A program made the translations under genes and the position numbers. The notes under the pieces are model-generated. The model searched no databases and was not told the origin of the DNA. It worked only from the letters and a program-made list of their open reading frames with translations. Below, piece after piece: positions 4,062-30,217 of a stretch of 40,540 bases of DNA; positions within the stretch are counted from its first letter, which is position 1; every line of letters starts with the position of its first letter. Origin of the DNA: a virus; the IMG/VR virus record IMGVR_UViG_3300028802_000039, positions 1 through 40,540 of that record. The stretch is one strand, 5' to 3'.

Positions 4062-4098
4062 TTAGAACGCTCTTACGTATTCTGGAGTGTAATGGTAT

Positions 4099-4128
4099 GC
4101 TTCCCCTTGTTGCAAAGCAAGGGGAAGC
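4099..4128 (+). promoter_or_regulatory. Hairpin covering the ribosome binding site of the HNH-AP2 gene
   Basis: GCTTCCCCTTG at 4099-4109 and CAAGGGGAAGC at 4118-4128 form a perfect 11-bp inverted repeat with an 8-base loop. The right arm contains the purine-rich AAGGGGAA that serves the ATG at 4134. Folding would block ribosome access on long late transcripts. There is no T-run after it, so a terminator is less likely. Confidence 0.7.
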
Positions 4129-4133
4129 CCACC

Positions 4134-4814
4134 ATGCGCAGGCTGGAAATCAAGGAAGGCCAACGCTTCGGACGACTTGTCATTGTTGAGGAAGCAGAAC
4201 CAGCCGGACGTTATCGCACCATGCTGGTCGAGTGCGATTGCGGGGCAGTCAAGAAGGTCAGGCTTTCGCATCTCACTGGCGGTCAGGTCGTGTCATGCGG
4301 CTGCCACTTGCGCGATCTCAGGTTCAAACACGGAATGCATGGCAAAAAAATCTATGCCGTCTGGGGAACCATGATTCAACGCTGCACAAATTCCCACGAT
4401 AATGGCTGGAAGAATTATGGCGGTCGCGGCATCGAGGTTTGCGAGCGTTGGCGCGATTTTCGGGCATTCTTTGAAGACATGGGAAATCCGCCAGCCGCTG
4501 GCATGGAAATTGACCGGATCGACAACGACGGGAATTACGAGCCAGGCAATTGCCGCTGGACAACGCCGACGATTCAAAAACGCAACCGCCGCAAGCGGGC
4601 CGCTGTTTCGTCGAAGTACCGCGGTGTTTGCTGGCGCAAAATTTCCAGCAAATGGCAGGCGGAAATCAAGGTTGCTGGCCGCCGCCGATTCCTTGGCATG
4701 TTTGCCAACGAGGAAGACGCCGCACGCGCCTATGATGCGGTGGCACGCATGTATGCTGGCTTCATGTTGAACTTTCCCGACGAACTGCTGGAGCTTTCCT
4801 CATGCCCATCCTGA
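4134..4814 (+). CDS. Free-standing HNH homing-type endonuclease with AP2 domain
   Basis: This 226-residue protein has a Cys-rich N-terminal region (CDCG about 34-37, CGC about 55-57) and a segment YGGRGIEVCERW (95-106). It is followed by the core EIDRIDNDGNYEPGNCRW (125-142), which is the HNH metal-finger signature of phage homing endonucleases. Residues 161-215 are an AP2 DNA-binding domain (KYRGVCWRK, then FLGMFANEEDAARAYD). Such genes cut target DNA to spread into related phages. It splits the capsid gene from the following structural genes. The start at 4134 has a good Shine-Dalgarno sequence; the upstream ATG at 4092 lies before the hairpin. Base composition is lower in GC than its neighbours, which suggests recent arrival. 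Confidence 0.9.
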   Translation: MRRLEIKEGQRFGRLVIVEEAEPAGRYRTMLVECDCGAVKKVRLSHLTGGQVVSCGCHLRDLRFKHGMHGKKIYAVWGTMIQRCTNSHDNGWKNYGGRGIEVCERWRDFRAFFEDMGNPPAAGMEIDRIDNDGNYEPGNCRWTTPTIQKRNRRKRAAVSSKYRGVCWRKISSKWQAEIKVAGRRRFLGMFANEEDAARAYDAVARMYAGFMLNFPDELLELSSCPS

Positions 4815-25889: not shown

Positions 25890-26318
25890 TTACGGATCGT
25901 TCTTCAGGGATTGGATGAAGTCGACCAGCTCAGGTTCGGCGCGGAACCATTCGCCCTTAACCCGCAGGTGCTTGAACTTCCGATGCATGTCTACCTCCAG
26001 ATCGAAACTTCCAGGCATCTCATGCAGAAGCGTGATATCGTATGGAACAGAGGAGTTTATACCTTCAAAGCGCCTCGTCATATTCCGAGTGAATCCTATT
26101 TTGATGAAATCGTTTGTCTGAATAAAGTAGACCCGGTGACTAGCTTCGGGGTCGTCTGACAATGCGCGGTCGACCTGATCCCATCTCCATAGAATTTTAC
26201 CGTTTCTCTTTTCAGGTCCGGGCAGGACTCCAGCCTCGACCATTTCAATTACTTCTTCTGGCGAACATGAAGTGTGGAAAGCAACTTCGGTTAATTCCAT
26301 AAACTTAGGAATGCTCAT
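25890..26318 (-). CDS. HTH plus GIY-YIG (T5orf172/MUG113-type) nuclease
   Basis: This 142-residue protein begins inside the 3' end of the integrase gene (14-base overlap). The N-terminal half (MELTEVAFHTSCSPEEVIEM, then ILWRWDQVDRAL) resembles a MerR/excisionase-like helix-turn-helix with a wing Trp pair. Residues about 60-138 are a GIY-YIG-type domain of the T5orf172 group: VYFIQTNDFIKIGFTRNMTRRF, LLHEMPGSFDLEVDMHRKF, then GEWFR. The Tyr, Arg, Glu and Lys positions are visible. The gene is AT-rich relative to its surroundings, which suggests transfer. It could be a homing-type nuclease or a regulator of integration. Confidence 0.75.
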   Translation of the reverse strand: MSIPKFMELTEVAFHTSCSPEEVIEMVEAGVLPGPEKRNGKILWRWDQVDRALSDDPEASHRVYFIQTNDFIKIGFTRNMTRRFEGINSSVPYDITLLHEMPGSFDLEVDMHRKFKHLRVKGEWFRAEPELVDFIQSLKNDP

Positions 26319-27282: not shown

Positions 27283-27511
27283 TGCGCACCTCGTCAGCCT
27301 TGGCGTCGGCGGACGTTGGCATGTCGGGGCCGCCCTCATCAAGGTAGCGCTCCACCTCTCGCCACTTCCACAGCCGCTTGTGGCCGCGCTGGATCGGGGC
27401 CGGGATGATGCCCTGCCGCACCCAGGCGTCGATCGTGCGCTCGCCGATGGACAGCTCCTCGCACAGCCGCGGGGCGTCGACATAGGTCGGCATGGTGCGC
27501 GGCTCGGTCAT
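27134..27511 (-). CDS. AlpA/MerR-like HTH protein, probable excisionase
   Basis: This 125-residue protein starts in an ATGA overlap with the gene upstream. YVDAPRLCEELSIGERTIDAW and GHKRLWKWREVERYLDEG (about residues 9-55) form a winged helix-turn-helix of the excisionase/AlpA group. The C-terminal 49 residues overlap the integrase gene and look like low-information sequence. Either the overlap is real or the functional protein ends near residue 75 and the frame has drifted. Its position directly before the integrase supports a role in directing excision or controlling integrase. Confidence 0.7.
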   Translation of the reverse strand: MTEPRTMPTYVDAPRLCEELSIGERTIDAWVRQGIIPAPIQRGHKRLWKWREVERYLDEGGPDMPTSADAKADEVRNATKRLAQAATQNRRGLLRGRHPGISGKPQVHSAGAGNAAKLSDVSGNG

Positions 27512-27741
27512 GTCGGCTCCTCCAGCGCCTCCCGACAAATCTTGCCAATGCCCTTGAGAGCGTGACGCATAATGTCAGCCGAAACCGCATCCAACGTCAT
27601 CCCACCAGCGGCCAACAGCTCACGGGCCAGCTTCAAATCCGGCGCAGGAAAGATGTCGGTGGGATATGCCTCGGCCCAGCTCTCAATGCGCTGCAGAGCG
27701 GTCACCAGCACGTCGATGCGGTCGTCATCGGTCATCGTCAT
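27508..27741 (-). CDS. Small protein of the left early operon, unknown
   Basis: This 77-residue acidic, helical protein begins in an ATGA overlap with the HNH-AP2 gene end and finishes in an ATGA overlap with the excisionase-like gene. IDVLVTALQRIESWAEAYPT and DIMRHALKGIGKICREALEE are amphipathic helices. No family is recognised. The ATGA link to an apparent RecT-tail remnant (27738-27775) suggests it once followed the recombinase gene directly. Confidence 0.6.
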   Translation of the reverse strand: MTMTDDDRIDVLVTALQRIESWAEAYPTDIFPAPDLKLARELLAAGGMTLDAVSADIMRHALKGIGKICREALEEPT

Positions 27742-27778
27742 GTCGGCATCAGCCCGCGCAGCTCGTCGCCCATCTTGT
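27738..27778 (-). repeat. Remnant copy of the RecT-like gene 3' end
   Basis: The bases coding LNKMGDELRGLM match the region at 28251-28289 of the RecT-like gene at 30 of 39 aligned positions, and several differences are silent. This copy keeps GC-ending codons and the ATGA overlap with the next gene, so it is probably the original end. The origin is inferred. Confidence 0.7.
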
Positions 27779-28229
27779 TGAGCCTGGCAAATGCACCAAA
27801 CATTTCAATCGCAGCGGAATCGTAAGCGGCGGCAGCCAATTCTGGTGTTTCGAACAGTCCTAGATATTTTTCTCCACAGGACGCCATCCATTTTTGTGAC
27901 CGGAGATGAAAGCAGACACCCTTGAACCTTCGTTTCTTTCGGGTGCGTTGATTTGCCAAATTTTGGGCGTGGGTTGCGATGCGCAGATTGGCAATTCTAT
28001 TGTCCGCCCTATCCCCGTTGATGTGGTCAATTTCGTCGGATGGCATTTCGTTGAAATGATAAGCCCAGACAAGGCGATGTGCTAATCGTAATCTTCCGTC
28101 ATACCAGATCACGCGATAGCCGCATGTGTTGATACAGCCCGCTATCTTTCCTCGCCTGTCACCCACTATCCAAGTTAGATTTCCGGTGTCTGGATCATAT
28201 GAAAATGTTGATCTCATTGCGTCACTCAT
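27738..28229 (-). CDS. HNH endonuclease with AP2 domain carrying a RecT-like tail remnant
   Basis: This 163-residue protein starts 8 bases inside the end of the RecT-like gene. HRLVWAYHFNEMPSDEIDHI then NGDRADNRIANLRIATHAQN (residues 51-90) is a full HNH signature. Residues 101-148 are an AP2 DNA-binding domain (FKGVCFHLRSQKW, YLGLFETPELAAAAYDSAAI). The normal AP2 end FARLN is followed by KMGDELRGLMPT, which matches the C-terminus of the upstream RecT-like protein. These last codons are GC-ending, unlike the rest of the gene. It appears to have inserted in the recombinase gene near its 3' end. Confidence 0.88.
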   Translation of the reverse strand: MSDAMRSTFSYDPDTGNLTWIVGDRRGKIAGCINTCGYRVIWYDGRLRLAHRLVWAYHFNEMPSDEIDHINGDRADNRIANLRIATHAQNLANQRTRKKRRFKGVCFHLRSQKWMASCGEKYLGLFETPELAAAAYDSAAIEMFGAFARLNKMGDELRGLMPT

Positions 28230-28998
28230 TGATCTGTTCCTTTGTCTTACCCATCAAAGAGCGCAATTCGTCTCCCATTTTGTTGAGCTTGATTTTTTCT
28301 CCATGCGCACGGTTTTTGTAGAAAGTGGCGAACACGTCCTCGCCGCGCATGGCTGCCTCGCGCGCCATGTCCTCGAGCGAGATTTGCTCCTCACCCGTGC
28401 CGGCCCCGTCGTCGCGCTCCCGAACCGGGTCGTCGTCAGCGACTTCTCCGGTCTCCTGGTCGTGCGCTGGGACCGGCTTTGGTGTTGCGATCTTCAACGG
28501 CGCCGGCACAGGGGCGGCGCGGGCTGCCGCCGGTATGTCTGAGACCTCCTCTTCGCTAAGCCAGCCAAGCCCACAAATAGACAACGTGACTCGCCTTTTA
28601 CTTTTAGTGACAGCCTTTAATTCAGCGTTAGCCCTAGCCTCACCCCGGAGGGTCTCGGGAAAATAAACAGATCCGAAATCCTCATCGGTGCGGCCGTCCG
28701 GCAGCTTGGCGCGAGCATGCACGGTGAGGATGTCGCTCACAATCTCGCGCGATATAATCTCCAGCGAGACACTATTGATCCTACGCAATTGGTCGGTGCA
28801 ATCGCGCTTGGCATACAAGGTCAGTCTTCCGTTGAGTGTGATATAGGCGAACGGTTGTGTTAGTGGGTTGAGGTTCAGGCTTTTGCAGGTTTCAATGTAA
28901 TAGCGCGTCCGTTCGTCGGGAGATAATTTAGCCAAATCTCCTTTGACTAAGACACTCTCAATGATTTCGCTGCTATCAACCCTTACTGGAGCAGTCAT
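28222..28998 (-). CDS. RecT/Red-beta-like single-strand annealing protein (probable)
   Basis: This 258-residue protein starts at ATG 28998, in an ATGA overlap with the HNH gene upstream and with AGAGGAT before it. LSPDERTRYYIETCKSLNLN, PLTQPFAYITLNGRLTLYAK and ANAELKAVTKSKRRVTLSIC are the conserved blocks of a phage protein family found beside YqaJ or lambda-exo nucleases. That pairing implies annealing of single strands in recombination. After about residue 150 it is an acidic, Pro-rich linker (PAPLKIATPKPVPAHDQETG) and a C-terminal helix. The last about 35 codons (28222-28326) use atypical codons. The family assignment is by motif memory and context. Confidence 0.65.
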   Translation of the reverse strand: MTAPVRVDSSEIIESVLVKGDLAKLSPDERTRYYIETCKSLNLNPLTQPFAYITLNGRLTLYAKRDCTDQLRRINSVSLEIISREIVSDILTVHARAKLPDGRTDEDFGSVYFPETLRGEARANAELKAVTKSKRRVTLSICGLGWLSEEEVSDIPAAARAAPVPAPLKIATPKPVPAHDQETGEVADDDPVRERDDGAGTGEEQISLEDMAREAAMRGEDVFATFYKNRAHGEKIKLNKMGDELRSLMGKTKEQINE

Positions 28999-29435
28999 TG
29001 GCCTATCCTCTTTCGTCGTTCTGCCGTTCTCAATCTGGAGCACTCACGACATCGGCGTTTCCCGGCCGTCCATCGTAAATTTTCCCCGTCTAATTCATGC
29101 CCACGAACACAGTGCGTCTTTGCGGACTGCCATGGTTCCCACCGATCGCGCTGTATGGCATCTCGTATGTTGTCTTGATGGTTGCCAAGATACAAATGAT
29201 CTGGATTGACGCAGCGTTTTACATCGCAGGTATGGCAAACCAGCATTCCATTCGGGATTTCACCGCGATGCATTGTCCACGAAAGGCGATGCGTTCTAAC
29301 CATATGTCGCGAGCCATCCAGGCGCGACCCTGTTACAAGTGCGCCGTACCCTTTCTGCGTGGCGCCGCTCCAAAGCCAGCAACCGTTGTTTGATTCTTGG
29401 TCGACGTATTGCCAGAAACGTTCCTCAAGGGTCAT
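28995..29435 (-). CDS. HNH endonuclease between exonuclease and annealing genes
   Basis: This 146-residue protein is joined by ATGA overlaps at both ends (29432-29435 and 28995-28998). ERFWQYVDQESNNGCWLWSG, VRTHRLSWTMHRGEIPNGML, VCHTCDVKRCVNPDHLYLGN and HQDNIRD are the signature of the HNH_3-type phage nucleases. C-terminal cysteines in CVRGH and CRECSR could bind a second zinc. There is no AP2 domain. It separates two proteins that normally act as a pair, so it is best read as a homing-type insertion that kept translation coupling. GC content is lower than in neighbouring genes. Confidence 0.88.
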   Translation of the reverse strand: MTLEERFWQYVDQESNNGCWLWSGATQKGYGALVTGSRLDGSRHMVRTHRLSWTMHRGEIPNGMLVCHTCDVKRCVNPDHLYLGNHQDNIRDAIQRDRWEPWQSAKTHCVRGHELDGENLRWTAGKRRCRECSRLRTAERRKRIGQ

Positions 29436-30217
29436 GTCAGCTCCCTAAGGCTCAGCCTTCCCGCGCGATCCCGCGTTATGCGCACGCCGGCCCCGAAACA
29501 TTTCTTCGCATCCGCCGGCACCAGATATTTCAGTTCCTTCTCGGCGGCCTCGGCGGCCTTCTTGGCGCCGATGTTTGCGAGCCACACGAATGCCTCCGAC
29601 ACCCAGGCGTTGGAAGATTCCATGTCGTAGGTCTTGCCCGGCACTGGCGCCGGCACCGGCTCCGCGATCTCGACCGGCGGCGTCTTCGTCCACACGCATT
29701 GCATGAACGCCTCGGCGCGGCGCACCAACTCGGCGCCATAGGCGTCGTCAAAGTCAATGAAATCGACGGTCGGCTCGCGCGCGCCCAGGATGATCGACAG
29801 CGCGCATTGCTTCACGCCGGTGACTATCATCTGCCAGTGGAGCTGCGGCATGTAGCGCTCGACCAGCGTCTCGAATGGCTCGTGGCCGCCGCAGTGCTTG
29901 GCCTCGATCGGGCAGCCATGGAGCACTGACCAGCCATCCAGTGTCGCCGCCGCCCAGCCGTTGGAATGCACGAGGACCTCGCCTCGCATCGTCACCGGGC
30001 TGTGCTTGAGTTCAAACCAGTCTACCTGGAGCTGCTCGGTGGCCTCGCCGAGCCGCACCGGCCAGACCTCGGAGAGGTCCACGGGCGCGAATGCCGGGTC
30101 TTCCGTCATTTCGTAATAGAGCTGCATGATCCTGGCGGTGTCGGCGACCATCAGGCACGCCACGCGAGATGCCGTGAGCTTGCCCTTGCGCGCGTCGATT
30201 TGGGCAGGTGTCAGCAT
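29432..30217 (-). CDS. YqaJ-type (lambda-exo-like) recombination exonuclease
   Basis: This 261-residue protein starts at ATG 30217 (TGATG overlap); an in-frame ATG at 30232 is also possible. LTASRVACLM near residue 14, GEATE (Glu59), ATLDGW (Asp94) and CPIEAKHCG (Glu105, Lys107) give the PD-(D/E)xK active site of YqaJ/lambda exonucleases. YMPQLHWQMIVTG is another family motif. It digests one strand of linear DNA and hands the other to an annealing protein, here the gene after the HNH insertion. Its last 15 codons (from about 29477) include ATA, GGA, AGG and CTT, which are unusual for this gene. Confidence 0.88.
   Translation of the reverse strand: MLTPAQIDARKGKLTASRVACLMVADTARIMQLYYEMTEDPAFAPVDLSEVWPVRLGEATEQLQVDWFELKHSPVTMRGEVLVHSNGWAAATLDGWSVLHGCPIEAKHCGGHEPFETLVERYMPQLHWQMIVTGVKQCALSIILGAREPTVDFIDFDDAYGAELVRRAEAFMQCVWTKTPPVEIAEPVPAPVPGKTYDMESSNAWVSEAFVWLANIGAKKAAEAAEKELKYLVPADAKKCFGAGVRITRDRAGRLSLRELT

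Follow-up and report, generated by a model that had tools for sequence, protein, structure and literature searches.

Organization of the SSAP and HNH-AP2 genes

The window analyzed here is the whole 40,540-nucleotide stretch of the virus record IMGVR_UViG_3300028802_000039. On its minus strand lie, in this order, a YqaJ exonuclease gene, an HNH gene (HNH gene 1), a single-strand annealing protein (SSAP) gene, an HNH-AP2 endonuclease gene, a gene of 77 amino acids and then an integrase-like gene. From YqaJ through the 77-aa gene, each gene shares a few bases with the next. The HNH-AP2 gene starts inside the last codons of the SSAP gene (ATGAGTGA), an overlap of 8 bases, and its stop codon overlaps the 77-aa gene by ATGA. 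GC3 denotes the share of codons ending in G or C.

30232-29432, minus strand: YqaJ exonuclease gene (open reading frame)
29435-28995, minus strand: HNH gene 1, directly before the SSAP gene
28222-28998, minus strand: SSAP gene, the target, with a Rad52-superfamily annealase core, a disordered linker and a C-terminal helical tail module, as modelled (open reading frame, AlphaFold2, Foldseek, homologs)
28222-28317, minus strand: putative foreign replacement for the SSAP 3' end, whose nine extra codons, GKTKEQINE, extend into the HNH-AP2 start (similarity break relative to L001 and L002; GC3 17/31)
28252-28287, minus strand: SSAP-attached tail copy, LNKMGDELRSLM (for 14 of 15 HNH-free tails, the more distant of the two copies)
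27738-28229, minus strand: HNH-AP2 endonuclease gene (PHROG 99), a predicted in-frame fusion to the native SSAP tail (Pfam and PHROG matches)
27747-27782, minus strand: predicted native SSAP tail, now the HNH C-terminus, LNKMGDELRGLM (closer to 14 of 15 HNH-free tails, with one tie)
27738-27741, minus strand: ATGA, the predicted native SSAP stop overlapping the next gene's start (such overlaps are common in HNH-free relatives)
27508-27741, minus strand: 77-aa gene, the downstream native neighbour (open reading frame; GC3 0.72)

A search of viral_contigs returned no close relatives of the 77-aa neighbour.

The target is a predicted Rad52-superfamily protein

The initial annotation had described the target as RecT-like. 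No Pfam family matched the SSAP at E<=0.01, RecT (PF03837) included, nor did any PHROG family, and a profile search of genome_contigs gave no match. The AlphaFold2 model, built from a five-sequence alignment with a mean pLDDT of 67 and a core above that average, has an alpha/beta core, a disordered linker and a helical C-terminal module (residues 208-248), and the insertion point falls within this module. Foldseek matched the core to human RAD52, yeast Mgm101 and lambda Red-beta. Because of these core matches, the target as modelled is a Rad52-superfamily single-strand annealing protein and not a Pfam RecT protein, and the earlier label is dropped. Its HNH-free homologs L001 and L002 are 61-63% identical to it, and the HNH-free relatives about 65% identical in protein.

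A helical tail of about 43 residues (SLEDMAREAAMRGE..FYK.RN..E...LN.MGDELRGLM; positions 28222-28400 in the window) was common to three kinds of SSAP core among L001-L060. These are the Rad52-fold cores, Pfam RecT cores (L027, L032, L051) and AAA_24/Sak4-like cores (L040, L042, L045). The shared tail looks like a portable docking module.

The nuclease ends in an SSAP-like tail

The HNH-AP2 protein has an HNH_3 nuclease domain (E=3.2e-15) followed by an AP2 DNA-binding domain (E=6.8e-6, which is below Pfam's curated cut-off), the domain order expected of phage HNH-AP2 homing endonucleases, and the gene matched phrog_99 (E=2.8e-58). The viral_contigs collection held no close relatives of the protein. 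Other phage HNH-AP2 proteins end approximately in FANLN or FSRFC (F(A/S)xLN) without an SSAP-like extension, whereas in the window protein FARLN runs directly into the SSAP tail. From this difference we infer that the nuclease has lost its own end and that the native SSAP tail and stop codon serve instead. The SSAPs of relatives have (R)LN at the junction, and GGCTCAAC is common to the HNH end and several relatives.

The tail on the nuclease could instead be a functional docking peptide, acquired by convergence or capture, and not a remnant. That the tail is a conserved module of three SSAP core kinds, with its last part intact in the HNH protein, fits this idea. However, the HNH protein has residues for only about the last two helices, and in a sister locus described below (L137) the remnant is out of frame with the HNH gene. 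We regard a docking peptide as very unlikely.

HNH genes of phages often lie within group I introns, and an HNH gene in a self-splicing intron or intein could leave an SSAP made by splicing to a downstream tail. Splicing onto the LNKMGDELRGLM exon would indeed bring back the native tail, but the SSAP already has a complete tail and stop ahead of the HNH gene. Searches for group I or II introns, or any other Rfam family, gave no match in 27300-29600 at E<=1 and none in the six sister loci at the gathering threshold, so there is no known intron around the HNH gene. An intron was rejected for the HNH-AP2 locus on this basis, and of all the alternatives weighed here, splicing is the one to which we assign the smallest chance.

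The two tail copies differ mostly by synonymous changes

The SSAP C-terminus consists of LNKMGDELRSLM, then the nine residues GKTKEQINE, then the stop codon, so that the full attached end reads ...LRSLMGKTKEQINE. The HNH-AP2 gene ends in FARLNKMGDELRGLMPT and its protein in FARLN-KMGDELRGLMPT. Between LNKMGDELRSLM and LNKMGDELRGLM, 11 of 12 residues and 28 of 36 bases match (30 of 39 with one more codon), and six codons are identical, five synonymous and one nonsynonymous. Aligned without gaps, the two C-termini share at best 11 residues in a stretch of 12; none of 2000 shuffles gave more than 7. Both the shared tail and the base match with its silent changes, given as 30 of 39 in the initial annotation, are therefore confirmed.

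Codon use changes at both junctions. GC3 in the HNH gene was 13/14 after the junction versus 70/149 in the body, and in the SSAP gene it was 17/31 in the replacement tail versus 64/82 in the preceding stretch. The earlier observation of AT-ending codons in the SSAP-attached copy thus stands, except that low GC3 is not confined to the tail: compared with 14 relatives, it was also low in SSAP codons 1-30 (0.40) and 111-145 (0.46). Since these patches lie elsewhere in the gene, the history of the SSAP is a mosaic beyond one event. The first 30 codons (28998-28909), for which relatives have a GC3 of 0.63-0.90, directly follow HNH gene 1 (28995-29435), and the SSAP 5' end beside this gene is possibly a replaced 5' end without a remnant.

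HNH-free relatives match the copy behind the nuclease gene

Similarity to the SSAP, the tail motif and a tail profile served to gather HNH-free relatives. In the two nearest, L001 and L002, MGDELRGLMT is followed by the stop codon. HNH-free relatives end in LNxMGDELRGLM plus a few residues, many with a GTGA or ATGA overlap into the next gene. Among 15 distinct HNH-free tails, which come from contigs that are not independent samples, 14 were nearer in bases to the HNH-attached copy and one was tied; at third codon positions all 15 were nearer to it. The shared tail spans 12 codons, too short for informative trees. Similarity of the SSAP gene to L001 and L002 breaks after TTC TAC, near 28317. 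Because of the tail distances and the common stop/start overlaps, we identify the copy behind the HNH gene as the probable native SSAP end, and the attached copy as its foreign, diverged replacement.

The initial annotation had likewise taken the copy after the HNH gene, with its GC-ending codons, as the original 3' end. It had predicted that HNH-free relatives would end like that copy with a link to the next gene, and their ends do resemble it, the next gene's start usually overlapping the stop. None of the 15 tails was nearer to the attached copy. Scans of viral_contigs found N-x-MGDELR-x-LM in no unrelated HNH protein, and the tail query was empty in phage records. The phage collection contained no near match to this phage, that is, no close HNH-free allele, and a search for a donor phage with the replacement SSAP tail found none. 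The tail motif was absent from genome_contigs, and from phage records by tblastn.

Two copies encoding near-identical peptides would also result from a tandem duplication of the SSAP tail within the same phage, with the HNH gene landing between the copies and the attached copy drifting later. In that scenario it is the functional, attached copy that diverged, whereas the unselected copy still matches HNH-free relatives. The differences are mostly synonymous, and GC3 of the attached tail is low like that of the HNH body and unlike that of the native gene. The same polarity was seen in L137, and also in L116 on codon use and a single relative. As conservation lies with the unselected copy, a tandem duplication is improbable.

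The same layout recurs in other phage genes

In a screen of HNH loci, taken from several phage genomes and two scans of viral_contigs, the sequence following each HNH gene was checked for resemblance to the end of the gene that precedes the nuclease. The first null model was inflated by low-complexity frames, and a low-complexity filter was then applied. With the filter, 5 of 141 distinct HNH loci scored at least 50, compared with 0.28 expected from mismatched pairs. Altogether, six further loci with the same layout or its mirror image were found among the 141 HNH loci plus L116, which came from an earlier screen. L093 was missed in the filtered run; it scored 156 unfiltered, above all 1680 null pairs.

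L137: exonuclease gene of an N4-like roseophage; the cleanest case, with HNH-free isolates matching the remnant
L093: large terminase gene; 34-residue remnant, 29/34 identical, 17 synonymous codons
L116: unknown gene; 24-residue remnant, 13 synonymous codons
L227: short gene; a weaker case, 14/28 residues identical between copies
L074, 1771-2300: small terminase gene; mirror-image 5' case, HNH gene fused to the native terminase start (VLKNPRH)
L141: second mirror-image 5' case

In L137, the attached tail SICSQRKEYFHDDAKPV continues into the HNH start. The remnant SVCEQRKEYFPDV overlaps the start of the primase gene, an arrangement also present in the isolates. This remnant shares 26-27 of 30 bases with the five HNH-free isolates (L150-L154); for the attached tail the figure is 20-21 of 30. 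Since the L137 remnant is out of frame with its HNH gene, fusion to the nuclease is not needed for this element class. The attached copy in L116 has AT-ending codons and the remnant GC-ending codons, and this locus has a single HNH-free relative, L155. For the mirror-image case L074, the terminase start is synonymously different, matching the HNH-attached start at 15 of 21 bases, and the relative Pam5 starts with MPALANPRH, resembling the HNH-attached MPVLKNPRH. A search for HNH-free relatives of L141 found none, and inspection by eye of the DNA-polymerase split in Klebsiella phage BUCT_49532 revealed no duplicated end. Because six other loci in unrelated genes match the layout, phages appear to carry a type of self-spreading element formerly described only in fungi and yeast.

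Signs of gene-end exchange in the recombination operon

Two comparisons between alleles bear on exchange within this operon. Between L003 and L005-L007, about 600 bp of the 3' part of YqaJ are only about 62% identical, with flanks at about 94%. The diverged tract directly abuts an HNH-AP2 gene that lies between YqaJ and the SSAP gene in L005-L007 only (L003 and L004 are without it), and the first roughly 40 SSAP bases after this gene also differ between L003 and L005. Over 5647 bp, L021 and L022 show only 30 differences, all of them within 139 bp of the SSAP tail. In both comparisons the apparent replacement tracts are confined to the same recombination operon, and we take them as independent signs of gene-end exchange. 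In both pairs, the tracts may instead reflect assembly chimerism.

Several other nuclease genes were noted. In L010 (3338-3793), another HNH gene lies between YqaJ and an SSAP gene; the YqaJ/SSAP junction is a repeated landing site for HNH genes. The window also has an HNH/AP2-like gene directly after a capsid-like gene (4092-4814) and a T5orf172 (GIY-YIG type) nuclease fused to an excisionase-like HTH domain (25890-26318); in L022 (5523-5984), a T5orf172-HTH homolog begins at the SSAP stop. A search for displaced gene ends beside HNH gene 1 (28995-29435), the HNH-AP2-like gene (4092-4814) and the T5orf172 gene (25890-26318) gave no credible duplicate, the best scores being low-complexity only.

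Under ordinary mosaic recombination, a foreign SSAP tail would have come in through exchange between phages, cleavage would have played no part, and the HNH gene would just happen to mark the boundary. SSAP tails are common to unrelated cores, a tail swap occurred with no HNH gain nearby (L021 versus L022), and homing endonuclease genes are located at genetic-exchange boundaries (PMC10448857). By itself, however, mosaic recombination leaves unexplained why the native end lies exactly across the nuclease in several unrelated genes, and is mirrored for 5' ends. Simple mosaic exchange is possible for single cases; as an account of the window locus we consider it unlikely, though less so than the other alternatives.

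A proposed mechanism of insertion and spread

We consider it highly probable that a free-standing HNH-AP2 homing endonuclease gene and a foreign SSAP 3' end were inserted as a unit at the 3' end of the SSAP gene, displacing the native end. The layout, its recurrence in other phage genes and the identity of the native copy are read from the sequences. The insertion would have swapped the last ~31 SSAP codons for a diverged version and moved the native last 14 codons beyond the nuclease gene, where they would have become the nuclease C-terminus while keeping the stop/start overlap with the next gene. During mixed infection, the enzyme would nick or cut the native 3' end of an HNH-free allele, and repair would copy the element from the donor; left homology would come from the SSAP body, right homology from the displaced tail together with the next gene. 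The diverged replacement tail would leave the SSAP whole and no longer fit the recognition site, and the displaced tail would retain only half of that site. The initial annotation had suggested that the HNH gene arrived with a recoded copy of the target's tail. Relatives and recurrence support such an arrival, with "recoded" meaning diverged in a donor and not designed.

Relationship to known elements

In fungal mitochondria, mobile ORFs occur in atp6 of Allomyces macrogynus and in atp6, atp9, cox2 and nad3 of Glomus sp.; there the gene is joined to a foreign C-terminus, and its native one lies on the other side of the ORF (PMC3630166). As in these mobile ORFs, the phage endonuclease ORF lies near the 3' end of a gene, a foreign C-terminus (here the diverged, low-GC3 tail) is fused to the target upstream of it, and the native one is displaced downstream and is closest to ORF-free relatives (14 of 15 tails; also in L137). 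The fungal enzymes are LAGLIDADG or GIY-YIG proteins in mitochondria, whereas the phage enzyme is an HNH-AP2 protein in operons, and the phage case differs further in keeping translational overlaps and in having its remnant fused to the nuclease. Because the enzyme is HNH and the record viral, we describe the phage element as analogous to the fungal mobile ORFs and not as a member of that group.

For the yeast WHO elements, experiments demonstrated that the replaced FBA1 end is resistant (PMC7282813). WHO proteins are HO/intein-related LAGLIDADG-zinc-finger endonucleases homing into FBA1, with cleavage and allele-specific resistance shown, whereas the phage element has an HNH-AP2 enzyme, several targets (the SSAP gene in the window) and a predicted cleavage. 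The best account, by analogy, is that the phage element works like the fungal mitochondrial mobile ORFs and the yeast WHO elements.

That phage homing endonuclease genes lie near essential genes and at exchange boundaries, with co-conversion, is already known (PMC10448857, PMC2988022). Like the phage element, the free-standing HNH genes among them (T4 mob genes, PMC2988022; endonuclease gene islands, PMC10448857) adjoin essential genes, overlap neighbouring ORFs and co-convert flanks. Unlike the phage element, they are described there without a replacement tail and a displaced native tail. The free-standing enzymes of T4 cleave at a distance of hundreds of bases or more from where their genes are inserted (PMC2988022, PMC10448857). 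The ShiLan insertion in phage methylases (PMC11855218) is similarly an HNH gene within a phage gene where no intron or intein can be recognised; over its first 11 in-frame residues it resembles the residues that follow the insertion site. It differs in reading through in frame, and the resemblance was interpreted there as possible intron-like similarity and not as a replaced gene end; it may be a related case. The literature searched, with most subscription papers outside it, contained no report of a replaced end together with a displaced native end in phages.

Implications for phage evolution

One gap in current models is how a conserved coding end can receive a free-standing homing endonuclease and the gene still survive. 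Here an answer can be read from the sequence: the element appears to bring a diverged copy of the piece that it displaces. Synthetic rescue gene drives follow the same logic, which until now had been reported from fungal mitochondria and yeast. For the L137 case, the predicted sensitive site is present in HNH-free roseophage isolates such as RD-1410W1-01 and DSS3phi2, which opens it to direct test. The presence of the layout in several phage genes that are unrelated to one another points to a general way for selfish nucleases to exchange the ends of essential phage proteins. We see about an even chance that a widespread class of homing element has gone unrecognised in phages, its HNH-AP2 nucleases coming with a replacement 3' or 5' end of the gene that they cut and leaving the old end behind, and that repeated swaps of this kind would drive the modular evolution of essential proteins such as SSAPs, exonucleases and terminases.
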